In this document: piece by piece, positions 4,029 through 33,411 of the stretch
Layout of the letters: the number at the start of each line of letters is the position of its first letter
Position numbering within the stretch: position 1 is the stretch's first letter
Assembly: GCA_026706345.1 (NCBI GenBank)
Contig: JAPOYX010000178.1
Location: 1-35,573, forward strand
DNA length: 35,573 bases
Source: Gemmatimonadota bacterium
GTDB taxonomy: Bacteria; JAAXHH01
Direction: 5' to 3'
Program-made: the position numbers and the translations under genes
The notes under the pieces: model-generated
What the model was told of the DNA's origin: nothing
Databases searched by the model: none
What the model saw: the letters and a program-made list of their open reading frames with translations, nothing else

Positions 4029-5369
4029 ATGGAACGCATCCTGATCGCGGAAGACGACCGCAACACCCGGGAAGGACTGGTCGAGTTGCTGTCGGACGAA
4101 GGGTATGAAGTCACCGGGGTGATCGATGGAGAGCAGGCGTACGAGACGGCCCGCAAGCGTCATTTCGACATCCTGCTCACGGACATGAAGATGCCCCGGG
4201 TGAACGGCCTGAACCTGATCAAGCGGGTGACCGGCACGTCACCGGAAACGAGTATCATCATGATGACGGCCTTCGCCACGGTGGAGACCGCTGTCAAGGC
4301 CATGCGCGACGGGGCCTTTTCCTACCTGACCAAACCGTTGAAGGTGGAGGAACTGCTCGCCACCATACAGGGCGCGCTGCAGGAGAAGCAAAACAGGCGG
4401 CGGATGGAAGCGTCGCCGGGGACTTCCTCCATCCCCGACCCGGAGATCATCGGCGAAAGCGATCAGATCAGGGGTATATTCGAACGGGTGGAAAAGGTCG
4501 CCAGGGCCAATACCACGGTGCTGCTGCTCGGCGAAAGCGGTACGGGCAAGAGCCTCATCGCCCGGGCGATACACGCGAAGAGCTATAGAAGGGACCGTCC
4601 TTTCGTGGACGTAAGCTGCGCCTCCATTCCGGAGGGGCTGCTGGAAAGCGAACTCTTCGGGACCGAGAAGGGGGCGTATACCGGTGCGCTGAACACGACG
4701 CGCAAAGGGTATTTCGAGCGGGCGGCCGGAGGTACGATATTCCTGGATGAAATCGGCGAAATCAGCGGTACCGTCCAGGTCAAGCTGTTGCGCGTGCTCC
4801 AGGAACGCCGGTTCGAAAGACTGGGCGGGACCGAACCGCTGGATATCGATGTCCGGGTGGTCGCGGCTACCAACCGGAACCTGGAGGACGCGGAAGGGCG
4901 CTACCGGCAGGAGCTCTACTACCGGCTCAACGTCATCCCCATCCTGGTGCCTCCCCTGCGCGACCACCGGGACGACATCCCGCCGCTCATCGACTATTTC
5001 ATCCGGAAATACACGGAGGAGAACGGACTGGGAGACAAGTCCATTTCCGACGACGCGCTGGAGATCTGCATGGGGTATGACTGGCCCGGAAACATCAGGG
5101 AGGTGGAAAACGCCATCGAGAGCGCCGTGGTATTGAGCGACGGGGAACGCATCCTGCCCGAACATCTGCCCAACCTCGCCCACGCGCCGCCCATCGTGTC
5201 GAATCCCGGTCCCGTCCAGGGTACCCTGAAGGATTCCAGGGGACAGGCGGAGAAACTCCTCATTCAACAGGCGCTGCGGGAGTCCGGCGGCAACCGCACC
5301 AGGGCGGCGGAAGCGCTGGGCGTGACGGTCAGGACTATCCAGTACAAGATCAAGAAATACGACCTGTAG
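4029..5369 (+). CDS. Sigma54-dependent response regulator, NtrC/AtoC family
   Basis: 446 residues from ATG at 4029, which follows AGAGGAC. The frame stays open upstream into the kinase gene, but the receiver domain begins exactly here ([10 protein letters not shown]). Receiver domain 1-118: acidic pair D9/D10, phospho-acceptor D52, T80 and K102. AAA+ domain from about 140: Walker A GESGTGKS at 168-175, the sigma54-contacting loop as GAYTGA (variant of GAFTGA), and FLDEIGEI. The C-terminal Fis-type helix-turn-helix is [20 protein letters not shown]. Known role of the family: binds upstream enhancers and remodels sigma54-RNA polymerase. Its likely partner is the kinase just upstream, and a sigma54-type promoter lies upstream of the receptor gene at 6543. 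The real target is inferred. Confidence 0.92.
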
Positions 5370-5379
5370 CACCGCAACC

Positions 5380-5391
5380 TTCCTGCAGGAA
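5380..5391. repeat. Perfect 12-bp palindrome after the regulator gene
   Basis: TTCCTGCAGGAA reads the same on both strands and lies 11 nt after the regulator stop. It could be an operator or chance; nothing else supports a role. Confidence 0.25.
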
Positions 5392-5409
5392 ACCTTCCAC
5401 GGATAGGCT

Positions 5410-5428
5410 GCCTCCCTCCCGGGGAGGC
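5410..5428 (+). other. Intercistronic 7-bp hairpin before the glycosyltransferase
   Basis: GCCTCCC (5410-5416) and GGGAGGC (5422-5428) pair perfectly around a 5-nt loop. No T-tract follows, so this is not a standard terminator. It may affect mRNA stability or partial read-through between the regulator and the glycosyltransferase. Confidence 0.35.
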
Positions 5429-5450
5429 GCCAATCCGGCCGGTAACTCCC

Positions 5451-6308
5451 ATGGGAAAGAAAGCCATTTCCGTATCCGTCGTGATTCCCACGCACAACCG
5501 GGAGAACCGGCTGCCGGCGGCGATCCGGTCCGTCCTGGACCAGTCGCTTCCGCCCTCGGAAATCATCGTCATCGATGACGGTTCCACGGACGCGACTCCC
5601 GGTCTCATGGGGCGCTTCCCCGAAGTACACTACATTCGGCAGGAAAACCAGGGCGTCAGCCAGGCCAGGAATCATGGCATCCGCGTGGCGAAGCACGAAT
5701 GGATCGCCTTTCTCGACTCCGACGACGAATGGCTCCCACGCAAGCTGGAAAAACAGCGCGAAGCCCTGGAACGCGAGCCGCAATACCGGTTTTGCCACAC
5801 TGATGAAATTTGGATCCGCGGGGGCAGGCGGGTCAATCCCATGAAAAAACACGCCAAGTACGGGGGCTATATCTTCAATCGGTGTCTGCCCCTGTGTGTC
5901 ATTTCCCCTTCTTCCGCGCTGATACACCGTGCCCTGTTCGACCGCTACGGCACGTTTGATCCGGAACTGCCGGTATGCGAAGACTACGACCTGTGGCTGC
6001 GCATCTGCGCGCGGGAACCCGTGCTCTACGTCGACGAACCCCTCTTGTTGAAGTTCGGCGGCCACGAAGACCAGTTGTCCCACGCCTACTGGGGCATGGA
6101 TCGGTTCCGCATACGCGCGCTGGAGAACCTGATCCGGAGCGGCGTGCTGGACGGCGAGGCGTTGGCCGGCGCACTGGACACTCTTTGCCGTAAAATCGAT
6201 ATATATGCCAACGGTGCGGAGAAGCGGCGCAGATTCGAAGAGGCGAGCAGCTACAGGGAGAAAAAGCGGTATTTCGAAGAAAGATTTGCCGCGATGCCGG
6301 GCGACTGA
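5451..6308 (+). CDS. Family 2 glycosyltransferase
   Basis: 285 residues, ATG at 5451. The GT-A fold signature is clear: VSVVIPTHNRENRLPAAI at residues 7-24, the nucleotide-binding IVIDDGSTD near 40-48, and the metal-binding FLDSDDEW near 87-94. A later CEDYDLWLRI motif corresponds to the acceptor/catalytic ED region of the family. The protein is soluble with no membrane segments. It transfers a sugar from a nucleotide-sugar to an unknown acceptor, probably a surface polysaccharide or glycan. It lies 81 nt after the regulator on the same strand and could be read from the same transcript; a functional link to the sensor system is not shown. The C-terminal 35 residues are charged and probably helical. 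Confidence 0.88.
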   Translation: MGKKAISVSVVIPTHNRENRLPAAIRSVLDQSLPPSEIIVIDDGSTDATPGLMGRFPEVHYIRQENQGVSQARNHGIRVAKHEWIAFLDSDDEWLPRKLEKQREALEREPQYRFCHTDEIWIRGGRRVNPMKKHAKYGGYIFNRCLPLCVISPSSALIHRALFDRYGTFDPELPVCEDYDLWLRICAREPVLYVDEPLLLKFGGHEDQLSHAYWGMDRFRIRALENLIRSGVLDGEALAGALDTLCRKIDIYANGAEKRRRFEEASSYREKKRYFEERFAAMPGD

Positions 6309-28451: not shown

Positions 28452-29642
28452 ATGCAGATCCGGGACGTCAAATGTTACGTGCTGAAAGGTGAACCCGAAA
28501 CGCGCCGGGAGAGCAGCGCGGACCGGGGCAGCATGGCACCCGTGCCGCCGGGCATCTCCGGGCTGTTTACCCATGACCAGGGATTTGGCGCCGACGCGCC
28601 CGACGGATACGCCTTCACCGGAGACGGACCGGAATCGAAGTACCGGCTGGTGGTCCGTCTCGTGACAGACGGCGACCTGGACGCCTACGCCGACTATGGC
28701 ACGGGTTTCGACCCCCGGGAACTGGAATGGCAGGGCCGCCAGTTCCTGGCGCGGTATGCCCACATGCTCATCGGCGTGGACGCCTTCGACCGGGAATACG
28801 TGTGGCAGCGGTTCTGGATGGCCCAGCGCTTCATGTACACGGGAAGAGGGCTACTGGATACGGTCGACCGGATGTTGTGGGACCTGGCGAGCCGCAGCGC
28901 CCGCCTGCCCATCTACAAGCTGCTGGGCGCATGCCGGGAAAGCGTGCCCGCCTACTGCAACGTGGGCGGCCGGACCATCGACGACCTGGTGGAAAACGCG
29001 GTGAAGCGCGTGGCTGAAGAGGGATTCATCGGCTGCAAGGACCATTCCTACCGGGGCGTGAAGACCAACGGGGAGATGGCCGTCAAGTTGCGGGAAGCTC
29101 TCGGTGACGAGATCATGCTCTTTCACGATCCCGTCGAGTCGTATACCTACGAAGAGGCCGTGAAGATCGGGCGCATCATGGAGAAGTGCGGATACCGGTG
29201 GATCGAGGAGCCTTTGCAGGACTACGACATCATGGGACTGAAGAAACTCTGCGCCACCCTCGATCTCCCGGTCCTCACCCTGGAGTGGATTGGCGCCATC
29301 GGGGGACAGCCGTACAACACGGCGCCGTACCTGGCGATGCAGGCCGCCGATATCGTCCGGCAGCGGGGCGTCGGCATCACGGGCCAGGTCAAGCAGGCCC
29401 AACTGGCCGAAAGTTTCGGCGTGGAGGTGCATGGAGGCGATCACCAGGTTATCCTGGCTGTCGGGAACGACCCCGTCTTCGAAGCGTACATGGGGCTGCG
29501 GCCGTGTCCACCGGAAGAGGAACTCGACTGCCGGGGAACGCTCGTCGTGGAAGACGGCGCCATGTCGATCGCCTGGAGCGACCGCCCCGCGCCGGAGCCG
29601 GACTGGGACGAAATGGCCCGGAGTGCTGTGGCTGTTATCTGA
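28452..29642 (+). CDS. Mandelate racemase/muconate lactonizing enzyme-family protein (acid sugar dehydratase-like)
   Basis: 396 residues from ATG at 28452 with AAGGAAA upstream. N-terminal capping domain about 1-135 and (beta/alpha)7 barrel. Metal ligands Asp226 (FHDPVE), Glu252 (WIEEPL) and Glu278 (LTLEW) have exact 26/26 spacing. The KxK position is Lys196-Asp-His198 (GCKDHSY), a K-x-H variant, and a C-terminal His lies in VHGGDHQ. These enzymes abstract a proton alpha to a carboxylate; many dehydrate or epimerise sugar acids. The true substrate is unknown. It is 90 nt after its diverged paralogue and ends about 60 bp before the AT-rich island. Confidence 0.88.
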   Translation: MQIRDVKCYVLKGEPETRRESSADRGSMAPVPPGISGLFTHDQGFGADAPDGYAFTGDGPESKYRLVVRLVTDGDLDAYADYGTGFDPRELEWQGRQFLARYAHMLIGVDAFDREYVWQRFWMAQRFMYTGRGLLDTVDRMLWDLASRSARLPIYKLLGACRESVPAYCNVGGRTIDDLVENAVKRVAEEGFIGCKDHSYRGVKTNGEMAVKLREALGDEIMLFHDPVESYTYEEAVKIGRIMEKCGYRWIEEPLQDYDIMGLKKLCATLDLPVLTLEWIGAIGGQPYNTAPYLAMQAADIVRQRGVGITGQVKQAQLAESFGVEVHGGDHQVILAVGNDPVFEAYMGLRPCPPEEELDCRGTLVVEDGAMSIAWSDRPAPEPDWDEMARSAVAVI

Positions 29643-29755
29643 TCTGAGCGACCGAAATACCTGAAACGTGCTCGCGGTGACCAGGGGTCCGGAATCTCAG
29701 AATAGAATGACTGCAACCATCATCGGGATGCTCCTGTTTGTGTAGAAAACCAAGC

Positions 29756-29807
29756 GATTTAGGACTCGGTCGCGCATCCGTGCTCTACGCTGTGTAAGCG
29801 CTAAATC
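29756..29807. other. Inverted repeat in the non-coding region before the reverse transcriptase
   Basis: GATTTAG (29756-29762) and CTAAATC (29801-29807) pair perfectly around a 38-nt insert. The 243 bp from 29643 to the RT start have no other gene; a second short hairpin, GTGGA-N7-TCCAC, lies at 29841-29857. Some defence-associated reverse transcriptases use an upstream non-coding RNA, so this is a candidate, but nothing else supports it. Confidence 0.3.
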
Positions 29808-29885
29808 AGTTTATGTGATCTGTACCATTGGTTGACCTAAGTGGATTCCGGTTCCACTGTGGTAATAGCATTTCTAGGTGAGACA

Positions 29886-31435
29886 GTGTGGAGACAAACA
29901 ACAGGGCTCGGTCTTACGAAGGACGAGGCATTCGTAGGGCTGGTTGACTACGGCTTATTCGGTGAAAAAACTCCACCGTGCTTTAGCACTGCAGGGCTTT
30001 CAAATCATGTCCCGACTGATCTTCGAAAGCTGTTAACAGAAGACGATAAAAATGAACTGGATAAGCTTCTAAAAAAAACGGACCCACGATTTCATACGTT
30101 ACGAATCATTACGCCATGTCAACACTCCTCGCTATATGGGGATTCCCCATCCCGAAAGCCATATAGTCCAGTGTCTAGCTCTGAAGCGCCATTGGGAAAA
30201 AACAAAGACCATTGTGCAAAACCGAAGATACCCGTGAGCCGTCTCTTTGTTCGAAAAACGTCAAGTAAGCGGTGTTTTTCGGATGAATTACAAAGGAAAC
30301 GAGTATCTTGACAACGAAGAATCCGACATTCGAAAAATGACCGGTGCGTATTATGTTGCTCGCACAGATATATCGCATTGCTTCCCCGGCATCTATACCC
30401 ACTCAATCCCTTGGGTGATTCATGGGCGCAGTAAATCGAAAAAGGACGAATCAGTCTTATTGGAAGGGAATCTCTTGGACAAAGTCACTCGAGGGACCCG
30501 AGATGGACAGACCAATGGACTCCTGATTGGGCCACACCCATCCAACGTCGTTTCCGAGATTATACTGACCAGAATTGATCATGAGATGATCCGGAAGGGA
30601 TACAGTCGGTTTTACCGCTATATTGACGATTATACTTTTTATGCAAAAACCCACGAAGAAGCTGAAAAGTTTATCCATGATCTCGGAATGCAACTGCGCG
30701 AATACGAGCTTGTTTTGAACGGGAGTAAGACTGAAATCTTGCCGATGCCGCTTCCAATTAGTGAAGGATGGGTACGGGAATTGAACAATTTCCGATTGCC
30801 TGCTAAAGGTGAAACTGTTCACTTCAAGACCGTTCGCTCCTAGACTTGGCACTGAATCTAGCTCATGGAGCGGAAACCTATGCTGTTTTGAATTACGCCT
30901 TTAAGATGGTTCCTCGGACTCTCAATAACCGAGCGAAGCGCCTCTTTGTTCAGGAAAGTATCAACTTGGCGCTGCTATATCCATATCTTGCTCCAGTCTT
31001 GGACGAGCACGTGTTCGACAAGCATCGCTATGATGGGATCGAGAAAGTCATTCTTGATTTCACTGAACAACTCCTAACAATTGGTATTCAGCGAATCTTG
31101 CCAGATTCCATCGCCCATGCCTTGTATTACTTGCTCAAACATAACCTTCGTTTGACTACGCCAGAGGACAAGCTACAAGAGGTTATCAAGATAGATGACT
31201 GTCGCGTCGCTCGAATGTGTTGTTGCTAGCTTACGCAAAACGCTTTGGGGTAAAGAACTTTAGTGATACGATACGGAGACGAGCAGATAAGCTGAAGGAT
31301 ATGGAAACTCGAGAGCAGGATCGCTTTTGGCTTCTGATCTATCAAGTATGGCGTTATAAAACACTAGAAGACAAAGGACAGTCTTTTTTAGCTGAATTGA
31401 AACGAAAACGCTTCGACTTCATAAGCTTCCGATGA
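29886..31435 (+). pseudogene. Abi/UG-type (defence-associated) reverse transcriptase, split by about five frameshifts
   Basis: Pieces in three frames join into one RT of about 516 residues. From GTG at 29886 (AGGTGA upstream; 29841 also possible) the N-terminus reads TKDEAFVGLVDYGLFGEK then PPCFSTAGLS; next ESLRHVNTPRYMGIPHPESH in frame +1, PVSRLFVRK in the first frame, and the core 30247-30843. The core has motif A (RTDISHCFPGIYTHSIPW), motif B (GLLIGPHPSNVVSEI) and the catalytic YIDD (RYIDDYTFYA). The C-terminal helical part continues at 30846-31229 and 31217-31435. Proposed indels: A8 30071-30078 (+1), A6 30197-30202 (-1), A5 30254-30258 (+1), near 30840 (-1, CC for CCC) and near 31205-31215 (-1). 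The YTHSIPW phrase and PPxF N-terminal motif resemble Abi/UG RTs. Local AT content is higher than in its neighbours. Intact activity depends on whether the indels are real. Confidence 0.72.
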
Positions 31436-31581
31436 TGTTTCAAGCAGCTAGATCAACGTAGCTACTCGATATTACTAAGTTGCTCAACTATTCCGATACC
31501 ATTGGCGTTGTACGTCGGCAAGATTGACTTAACCTTGTGGTTCACCAAGGACTACGCAAATCGGTACCTGAAGGACTATTG

Positions 31582-31598
31582 ACAGCGTATATTGCTGT
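31582..31598. promoter_or_regulatory. Possible operator before the MNT-HEPN pair
   Basis: ACAGC (31582-31586) and GCTGT (31594-31598) are inverted halves around an AT-rich 7-bp centre, 42 bp upstream of ATG 31640. A TTGACA lies at 31579-31584 without a well-placed -10. Toxin-antitoxin operons often have such sites. The remaining gap from 31436 shows no gene. Confidence 0.3.
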
Positions 31599-31639
31599 AA
31601 TAAGGTGTTCCAATTACCCGATTCAATAAAACGGATGCC

Positions 31640-31966
31640 ATGAACAAGGGAATGCTCGACCCGCAGGTCCTGAATGAAATCATCCGACGGATCGTCGAGG
31701 TGGCAGAGCCGGAGAAGATCATCCTATTCGGGTCCGCCGCCCGTGGCGAGATGAATCGCCACAGTGATGTCGATCTGCTCATCATAAAGGAATGCGCGAG
31801 TCCGCTTGACCTGATGGGCGATATATATATGAACCTAGATGGCGCGGGGGCGGCCGTCGATGCGGTCGTCGTCACGCCCCAGGCGGTCGAGCGTTACAAG
31901 GACAGCCACGCATTGGTCATCAAACCGGCATTGCGGGAAGGTAGGGTGGTGTATGAAGGAACCTGA
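31640..31966 (+). CDS. Minimal nucleotidyltransferase (MNT), MntA-like antitoxin
   Basis: 108 residues, ATG at 31640. The pol-beta-type nucleotidyltransferase signature is exact: GS at 31-32, ten residues, then DVD at 43-45 (FGSAARGEMNRHSDVDLLII), with the third carboxylate probably Asp74 in AAVDAVVV. MNT proteins next to HEPN genes act as antitoxins; in the studied type VII systems MntA adds AMP to the HEPN toxin. The stop overlaps the HEPN gene by 14 nt. Base composition is closer to the chromosome than that of the RT. Confidence 0.85.
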   Translation: MNKGMLDPQVLNEIIRRIVEVAEPEKIILFGSAARGEMNRHSDVDLLIIKECASPLDLMGDIYMNLDGAGAAVDAVVVTPQAVERYKDSHALVIKPALREGRVVYEGT

Positions 31967-32378
31967 GCGTTTTCCGGCTGATGATCCTCGGAATTGGCTG
32001 AAACGTGCCAGTAGCAATGTGTCGCGAGCCAAGAGTCGTTTGCCCGATTCCTACCTCGAAGACCTGTGCTTCGACGCTCAGCAGGCAGCCGAGAAAGCTA
32101 TCAAGGCGTTGATGATTAAGCGCGGAATCGACTTCCCATACATACATGATTTGGCCCAGTTGCTTTCATTGCTCAAGGAATCTGGCGAAGAAATCCCAGA
32201 CGCTGTCGGTCAGGCTAGGAAACTCACTCGATTCGCCACTGTCACGCGCTACCCCATGAATCAGGCCGTCACCGAAACAGCACTACACCGAGGCCATCGC
32301 CATCGCCGAGGCCGTCCTCCGCTGGGCGGAGGAACGCATCGATTGATCCCCGCGAACGCAAGCACCTCGCCGAAGTAG
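31953..32378 (+). CDS. HEPN-domain protein, putative toxin partner, with C-terminal frameshift
   Basis: As read, 141 residues from ATG at 31953, inside the end of the MNT gene. The HEPN helical core is clear: DPRNWLKRASSNVSRAK, CFDAQQAAEKAIKALMIKRG and IHDLAQLLSLLKE, then FATVTRYPMNQAVTE. After about 32276 the frame turns into an Arg/Gly-rich tail (RGHRHRRGRPP), not family-like. Omitting one A of the AAA near 32276-32278 restores QHYTEAIAIAEAVLRWAEER and a stop at 32344-32346, the expected end for a protein of about 130 residues. So it carries a +1 indel, real or from sequencing. The RX4HXY motif of HepT RNases is not present; the HDL-type HEPN motif is. Toxicity is inferred from family and pairing. 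Confidence 0.75.
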   Translation: MKEPERFPADDPRNWLKRASSNVSRAKSRLPDSYLEDLCFDAQQAAEKAIKALMIKRGIDFPYIHDLAQLLSLLKESGEEIPDAVGQARKLTRFATVTRYPMNQAVTETALHRGHRHRRGRPPLGGGTHRLIPANASTSPK

Positions 32379-32421
32379 ACTATCCCAACGGCCGCACGAA
32401 CCACAACAGCCTGGAGAGAAC

Positions 32422-33411
32422 ATGTCTGAATTGATACGATGGGGAATAATCGGCACGGGTGCCATCGCCCATAAGTTTGCCGATGCGCTCACGGTGGTAC
32501 CGGATGCGGAGCTTTTGGCCGTCGGATCCCGCGCCCAGGGGACGGCGGACGCCTTCGGCGACGAGTTCGAAGTACCCCGAAGACACGCATCCTACCAGTC
32601 CTTGGCGGAAGACCCGGGGGTCGACGCGATCTACGTGTCCACCCCGCATCCCATGCACTGCAGGGACACGCTGCTCTGCCTGAACGCGGGCAAGCCTGTA
32701 CTCTGCGAGAAACCCTTCGCCCTGAATGCCCGAGAAGCAGAGATCATGATCCAGTGTGCGCGCCAGCGGGGTGTTTTCCTCATGGAGGCCATGTGGACGC
32801 GGTTCCTGCCGACCATCGCGCTGGTACGTCAGTGGCTCGCCGACGACACCATTGGCGAAGTACGCAATATGATGGCCGACTTCGGATTCCGCGCGAAATT
32901 CAATCCGGAGGGCCGCTTGCTGAATCCCGAACTGGGGGGTGGAGCCCTCCTGGACATCGGTGTATACGTCGTATCGCTTGCTTCGATGGTCTACGGGAAA
33001 AGGCCGGATCGGGTCGCCGCGCTGGCGGATATCGGCACAACGGGCGTTGATGAGCAGACCACCATGGCCTTTCGATACGATACAGGCGCCATGGCCGCCC
33101 TGACCTGCGCGGTCAGGACCAGCACGCCCGGGGCGGTGTCCATCCACGGGACTCGGGGAAATATCCATATCCCGTCACCGTTCTATGACTCCTATACCGC
33201 AACCCTGAGCGTGGAAGGAAAAGAACCGGTCACGGTTGCGCCGGAACGCGTGGAAAACGGATTCAAATACGAGATCGAGGAAGTGGGCCGGTGTCTGCGG
33301 GAAGGGTTGCTCGAGAGTTCCGCACTTCCGCTGGACGAGACCCTGGCCATCATGAGGACGCTGGACGCCGTCCGGTCCGAGATCGGGTTGAAATACCCCA
33401 TGGAAGGATAG
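32422..33411 (+). CDS. Gfo/Idh/MocA-family NAD(P)-dependent oxidoreductase
   Basis: 329 residues, ATG at 32422 after GGAGAGAAC. The Rossmann N-terminus has WGIIGTGAIAHKFADAL; VSTPHPMH and the catalytic/cofactor motif EKPFA (Lys97) follow. The C-terminal alpha/beta domain contains GGGALLDIGVYVVSLA with the conserved D-I-G-x-Y positions (D and H/Y play acid-base roles in the family). The pattern AMWTRFLP resembles dihydrodiol dehydrogenase-like members and 1,5-anhydrofructose reductases. It probably oxidises or reduces a sugar or cyclitol. It starts an apparent operon with an aldo/keto reductase and a binding protein. Confidence 0.9.
   Translation: MSELIRWGIIGTGAIAHKFADALTVVPDAELLAVGSRAQGTADAFGDEFEVPRRHASYQSLAEDPGVDAIYVSTPHPMHCRDTLLCLNAGKPVLCEKPFALNAREAEIMIQCARQRGVFLMEAMWTRFLPTIALVRQWLADDTIGEVRNMMADFGFRAKFNPEGRLLNPELGGGALLDIGVYVVSLASMVYGKRPDRVAALADIGTTGVDEQTTMAFRYDTGAMAALTCAVRTSTPGAVSIHGTRGNIHIPSPFYDSYTATLSVEGKEPVTVAPERVENGFKYEIEEVGRCLREGLLESSALPLDETLAIMRTLDAVRSEIGLKYPMEG

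Follow-up and report, generated by a model that had tools for sequence, protein, structure and literature searches.

A broken DRT4 (UG15) reverse transcriptase gene in a turnover slot for small defense and toxin-antitoxin modules

Results

The window analyzed here, that is, the whole stretch of 35,573 nucleotides, is contig C178 of an assembly of 4.49 Mb in 293 contigs, and its genome is labeled G000. Two intact forward-strand genes, one of the enolase superfamily (MR_MLE_C; 28452-29642) on the left and one for a Gfo/Idh/MocA oxidoreductase (32422-33411) on the right, border a slot that holds a reverse transcriptase (RT) pseudogene followed by an MNT and a HEPN gene, all on the forward strand. 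The stretch with this RT and HEPN island has a GC content of 45-48%, and the rest of the contig is at about 62%.

The RT pseudogene (29886-31435) carries five frame-breaking length changes and lacks the single frame of about 500 codons that is open in its relatives (L033 to L037). Its longest open piece (30247-30843, 198 aa) contains the RT palm, in which motif A, the motif B region, and YIDD are all present, and it matches RVT_1 of Pfam (E of 9e-10) and the UG15 structure 21ou (E of 5e-31); the catalytic motifs TDIS, with the Asp of motif A, and YIDD, the YxDD motif, align with those of the intact copy. There follow a piece that corresponds to the Drt4 C-terminal region (30846-31229; profile positions 317-438, E of 6.3e-22) and a final piece (31217-31435; Drt4 E of 4e-7), the stop of which is in the same place as the stop of the intact orthologue. 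A sequence-only reading of this DNA had recognized an RT spread over three frames with motif A, motif B, and YIDD retained, and in this it was correct.

The RT was assigned to a family by its profile scores and by its similarity to solved structures. Drt4 is the top PADLOC profile for all four window RT pieces, which match it in collinear order over profile positions 12-53, 125-311, 317-438, and 438-501 (E of 2e-5, 2.9e-71, 6e-22, and 4e-7 from the N-terminal to the C-terminal piece), and this collinearity is far beyond chance. The Drt4 model of NCBIfam matches the last three pieces, with a best score for the fragmented window copy of 216 bits. Intact orthologues are present in other metagenome-assembled genomes (MAGs), namely L033 and L034 (516 aa, 86-87% identical to the query piece), L035 and L036 (515 aa, 62-64% identity), and L037 (55%). 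Against PADLOC, intact L033 scores 508 bits with Drt4, 320 with Drt6, 226 with UG30, 142 with AbiK, and 113 with Abi-P2; its Drt4 match covers positions 12-501 of a profile of 506, and its residues 29-492 match the solved UG15 structures with an E of 6.5e-52. With the NCBIfam model, the intact orthologues score 434, 432, and 406 bits and stay below the equivalog cut-off of 450, which L037, a Holophagaceae relative, reaches with 450.4 bits. This shortfall is small and other families are nowhere near, so the scores of 432-434 bits indicate a somewhat divergent DRT4 branch. Neither the group II intron RT profile (48 bits) nor the retron profile (44 bits) is the best match of the intact orthologue, which scores 434 bits with Drt4, and a placement with either, named beforehand as the outcome that would overturn a role in defense, fails by a wide margin. 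The proposed membership in the UG/Abi type of defense RT was thereby confirmed, with DRT4/UG15 as the best profile. As all four pieces match DRT4 in order, this is a known defense RT with PDB structures and a mechanism described in the literature, rather than the little-studied lineage that had been suggested. The window RT is as such a member of DRT4 (UG15) by descent, and a dead one rather than a working one.

A search of IMG/VR viral contigs found no relatives of the RT and thus gave no sign of phage carriage, and among plasmids, a single unannotated record spans most of the protein, at 28.5% identity. L033 and L034 carry the intact DRT4 in almost the same locus, flanks included, and their MAGs bear the labels Latescibacterota and Gemmatimonadota, which points either to a wrong label on one of them or to a move of the locus.

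In a frame-aware alignment, residues 2-516 of L033 correspond to window positions 29886-31432 with five frame changes, at 79% identity outside these changes and with no in-frame stop between the breaks. The sizes of the breaks were taken from a nucleotide alignment with the intact L033 and L034 and with the copy of a congener, G001, and amount to 1, 1, 1, 4, and 5 bases relative to L033 and L034. The first is a one-base change at an A8 run (30071-30078), and the second, also of one base, lies at or just beyond an A6 run (30196-30209) that the intact copy does not have at this site. The third (30266-30276) is a one-base change at a doublet that lies some 10 bases past an A5 run, and it is placed beyond the run because the frame preceding the break still matches through it (RKTSSKR). 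The fourth is a four-base change at a short direct repeat (30836-30845), and the fifth is a five-base change beside a short tandem repeat (31200-31212). Only the first break thus lies cleanly in a homopolymer, and the second abuts one. It had been claimed that about five one-base changes, mostly in homopolymers, separate the fragments; the number of breaks stands, and single bases account for three of them. The A8 run was rightly named and the A6 run is at least abutted, but the A5 run is not the site of a break, the supposed C-run break at about 30840 is the four-base change at the direct repeat, and the one expected at about 31210 is the five-base change, at about 31205. We infer that the four- and five-base changes at short repeats fit replication slippage.

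Downstream of the RT, an intact gene for an MNT (minimal nucleotidyltransferase) antitoxin (31640-31966, 108 aa; PF01909/PF18765) matches its relatives over the full length, and the adjacent gene for a HEPN toxin (31953-32342; PF05168) makes up an MNT-HEPN toxin-antitoxin pair with it, with the HEPN frame of the window copy broken at about 32256-32266. HEPN genes beside an intact MNT carry three different lesions in G000, G002, and G011 (window 31953-32342; L015 2576-2961; L024). The MNT-HEPN proteins of G001 (L014 3971-4676) and G006 (L018 2391-3096) are 98% identical, and identity between that pair and the G000 proteins is only about 66-75%, so the RT and MNT-HEPN histories may differ. DRT4 and MNT adjoin each other in G000 and G001 as well as in L035 and L036, with the MNT gene of L035 just upstream of DRT4 on the other strand, and MNT genes are rare, at three per genome in G000 and G001. 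We do not claim a functional link from this adjacency, which reflects at most two events, and defense genes cluster anyway. In L033 and L034, an intact FitA-PIN pair (4868-5545) immediately precedes the intact DRT4; a toxin-antitoxin module is recurrent beside DRT4.

The syntenic site was surveyed in ten congeneric genomes that have it on one contig, among which the border genes are 84-94% (enolase superfamily) and 80-87% (Gfo/Idh) identical. The slot corresponds to window positions 29643-32421 and is also seen in L014, L015, L016, L018, L022, and L024. Three genomes have an empty slot, of 27 bp in G004 and G010 and of 70 bp in G008. Where filled, it holds FitA-PIN in G003 and G009; FitA, an internally deleted PIN gene, and MNT-HEPN in G006; MNT and a broken HEPN in G002 and G011; a broken DRT4, MNT, and an intact HEPN in G001; and a broken DRT4, MNT, and a broken HEPN in G000. 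Besides G000, the RT is thus present at this site in G001, a MAG labeled Candidatus Latescibacterota (JAJEAN010000007; L014/L038). Its copy has lost the catalytic core to a deletion of about 520 bp and is broken once more near the C terminus, and it has no lesion in common with the copy of G000. Elsewhere in its genome, G006 has an intact UG20-type defense RT (L027 853-2439; 613 bits to RT_UG20).

Over the slots of the ten genomes, 6 of 10 effector genes are broken (RT, 2 of 2; HEPN, 3 of 5; PIN, 1 of 3), against none of the eight antitoxin genes (five MNT and three FitA), a contrast with a p of about 0.011 by genes (hypergeometric) and of about 0.15 when weighted by gene length. The excess breakage of effectors over antitoxins is suggestive.

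Selection was examined with a codon model on the 255 codons of the C-terminal part common to all copies; in all selection tests, codons near the breaks were masked and the sequence was not mended. The G000 and G001 branches have an omega of 0.22 and 0.23, respectively, against a background of 0.21, and a value of 1 is rejected for both branches (delta lnL of 5.6 for G000 and 13.7 for G001). For the N-terminal half, the codon model gave an omega of about 0.86 on the path to G000 with an outgroup saturated in synonymous sites, and a relative-rate count gave 15 versus 7 (p = 0.13). Relaxed selection on this half was set aside, as the count does not support it and the outgroup is saturated.

Discussion

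The analysis leaves two matters to be weighed, how the RT came to the slot and what its breaks represent. As for the first, the flank tree makes G000 sister to G008, which has an empty site, and G001 sister to G006, which has no RT, and the presence of the RT is therefore patchy. This would suit separate gains of the RT in G000 and G001, as opposed to inheritance followed by loss from the sister species. The synonymous divergence of the RT between G000 and G001 (0.64), however, falls within the 0.45-0.83 of the flanking genes, as would fit inheritance and subsequent losses, and the RT precedes MNT-HEPN in the same order in both copies. Separate gain is thus a possibility that we regard as rather doubtful, and it could hold whichever way the breaks are read.

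As for the second, the sequence-only reading had offered decay and sequencing error as alternatives, and decay is clearly favored. Error rates were judged from the flanking genes in comparison with two congeners, G001 and G008. Each of 21 flanking genes, with 28,965 coding bases, runs in one frame relative to both, with no break, and the six breaks observed, five in the RT and one in HEPN, all fall within the 1.94 kb of these two genes, with a P of about 6e-8 if breaks were distributed uniformly. The earlier remark that the surrounding genes are unbroken accordingly holds for the 21 flanking genes and does not hold for the adjoining HEPN. On a rival reading, the RT is intact in the organism and errors of sequencing or assembly at AT-rich homopolymers produced its breaks. 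The same flanking genes, however, contain 62 homopolymers of at least 5 bases and not one break. The position of one break in A8 and of another beside A6, as well as the lower GC content of the region (45%, with about 62% around it), would agree with such errors. Three of the five breaks, though, lie outside runs of at least 5 bases, two of these being the four- and five-base changes at repeats, and the adjoining HEPN is also broken without being rich in A runs, with homologues in G002 and G011 broken by other lesions. The congener's RT copy, moreover, is dead by deletion, and since the two copies share no lesion, decay has taken place independently in two species. Error is therefore improbable as an explanation, and the breaks in the window RT are better taken as real decay. 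It is scarcely credible that the RT pieces, whether translated one by one or linked through recoding, would still function jointly, even with all catalytic motifs retained in the longest piece, given five frame changes of various sizes that no relative shares, orthologues with one open frame of 515-516 codons each, and the loss of the catalytic core from the same gene in G001.

The low dN/dS places this decay in time. Functional relatives show an omega just as low as that of the window RT, which could be counted in favor of sequencing error, and a functional gene with such errors would indeed show it too, so that omega cannot separate the two readings. As G001, which is certainly dead, has the same low omega, the value speaks of recent death and not of life, and with about 0.22 on both branches, we infer that both copies died recently. 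It is thus very probable that this DRT4 was under selection until recently and was then inactivated by several real small indels. The remaining pieces cannot form a full RT with its C-terminal region, no function is accordingly expected now, and the window copy is most likely inert.

What the gene may once have done can be approached through published work on its relatives. According to published reviews, DRT4 acts as a single gene, and its RT synthesizes random, untemplated single-stranded DNA (ssDNA) with a tyrosine of the protein as the primer; this ssDNA is protected by a phage DNA-binding protein and reaches toxic levels (PMC13213688, PMC13314766), and the enzyme forms hexamers (PMC13174585). 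By analogy, the intact orthologues would carry out the same protein-primed, template-free ssDNA synthesis, and the window gene, when intact, would have been a single-gene defense that harms the infected cell. Its past antiphage function is to this extent presumptive, as is the reason for its loss. The slot between the enolase-superfamily and Gfo/Idh genes is a permissive site at which the genus gains and loses small defense and toxin-antitoxin modules. It could be speculated, tentatively, that it acts as a revolving door for DRT4, MNT-HEPN, and FitA-PIN, in which the effector decays soon after arrival and the antitoxin stays intact; were this true, the slot would be a visible record of the carriage cost of such systems in an uncultured lineage.

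In itself, the window RT is one more dead member of a known family, and overall its decay is of an ordinary kind, with only a modest evolutionary twist. DRT4 reached a Latescibacterota-labeled genus, was kept there under purifying selection, and then underwent at least two independent deaths at one site. The slot series across ten genomes provides a clean natural record of the gain and loss of small defense modules, and the intact L033 and L034 represent a divergent DRT4 branch that can be tested.

Relation to known systems

AbiK and Abi-P2 belong to the same broad class of untemplated defense RTs with a helical C-terminal domain (PMC13174585), but their profiles give L033 only 142 and 113 bits, compared with 508 for Drt4. 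DRT6 is likewise a related single-gene RT and the second-best named DRT type, and its 320 bits are still far under those 508. With DRT4/UG15 itself (NCBIfam NF041749; PADLOC PDLC02178; PDB 21ou, 9vdo, and 9ltm), the window locus has in common a single-gene organization and an RT palm with YIDD followed by a long C-terminal region, the pieces being collinear with the profile; it differs in that the window copy is broken in five places. The closest counterpart is the decayed DRT4 of G001, which is the same gene at the same genomic site and is set apart by its deletion of about 520 bp and a different C-terminal break, lesions that the two copies do not share.
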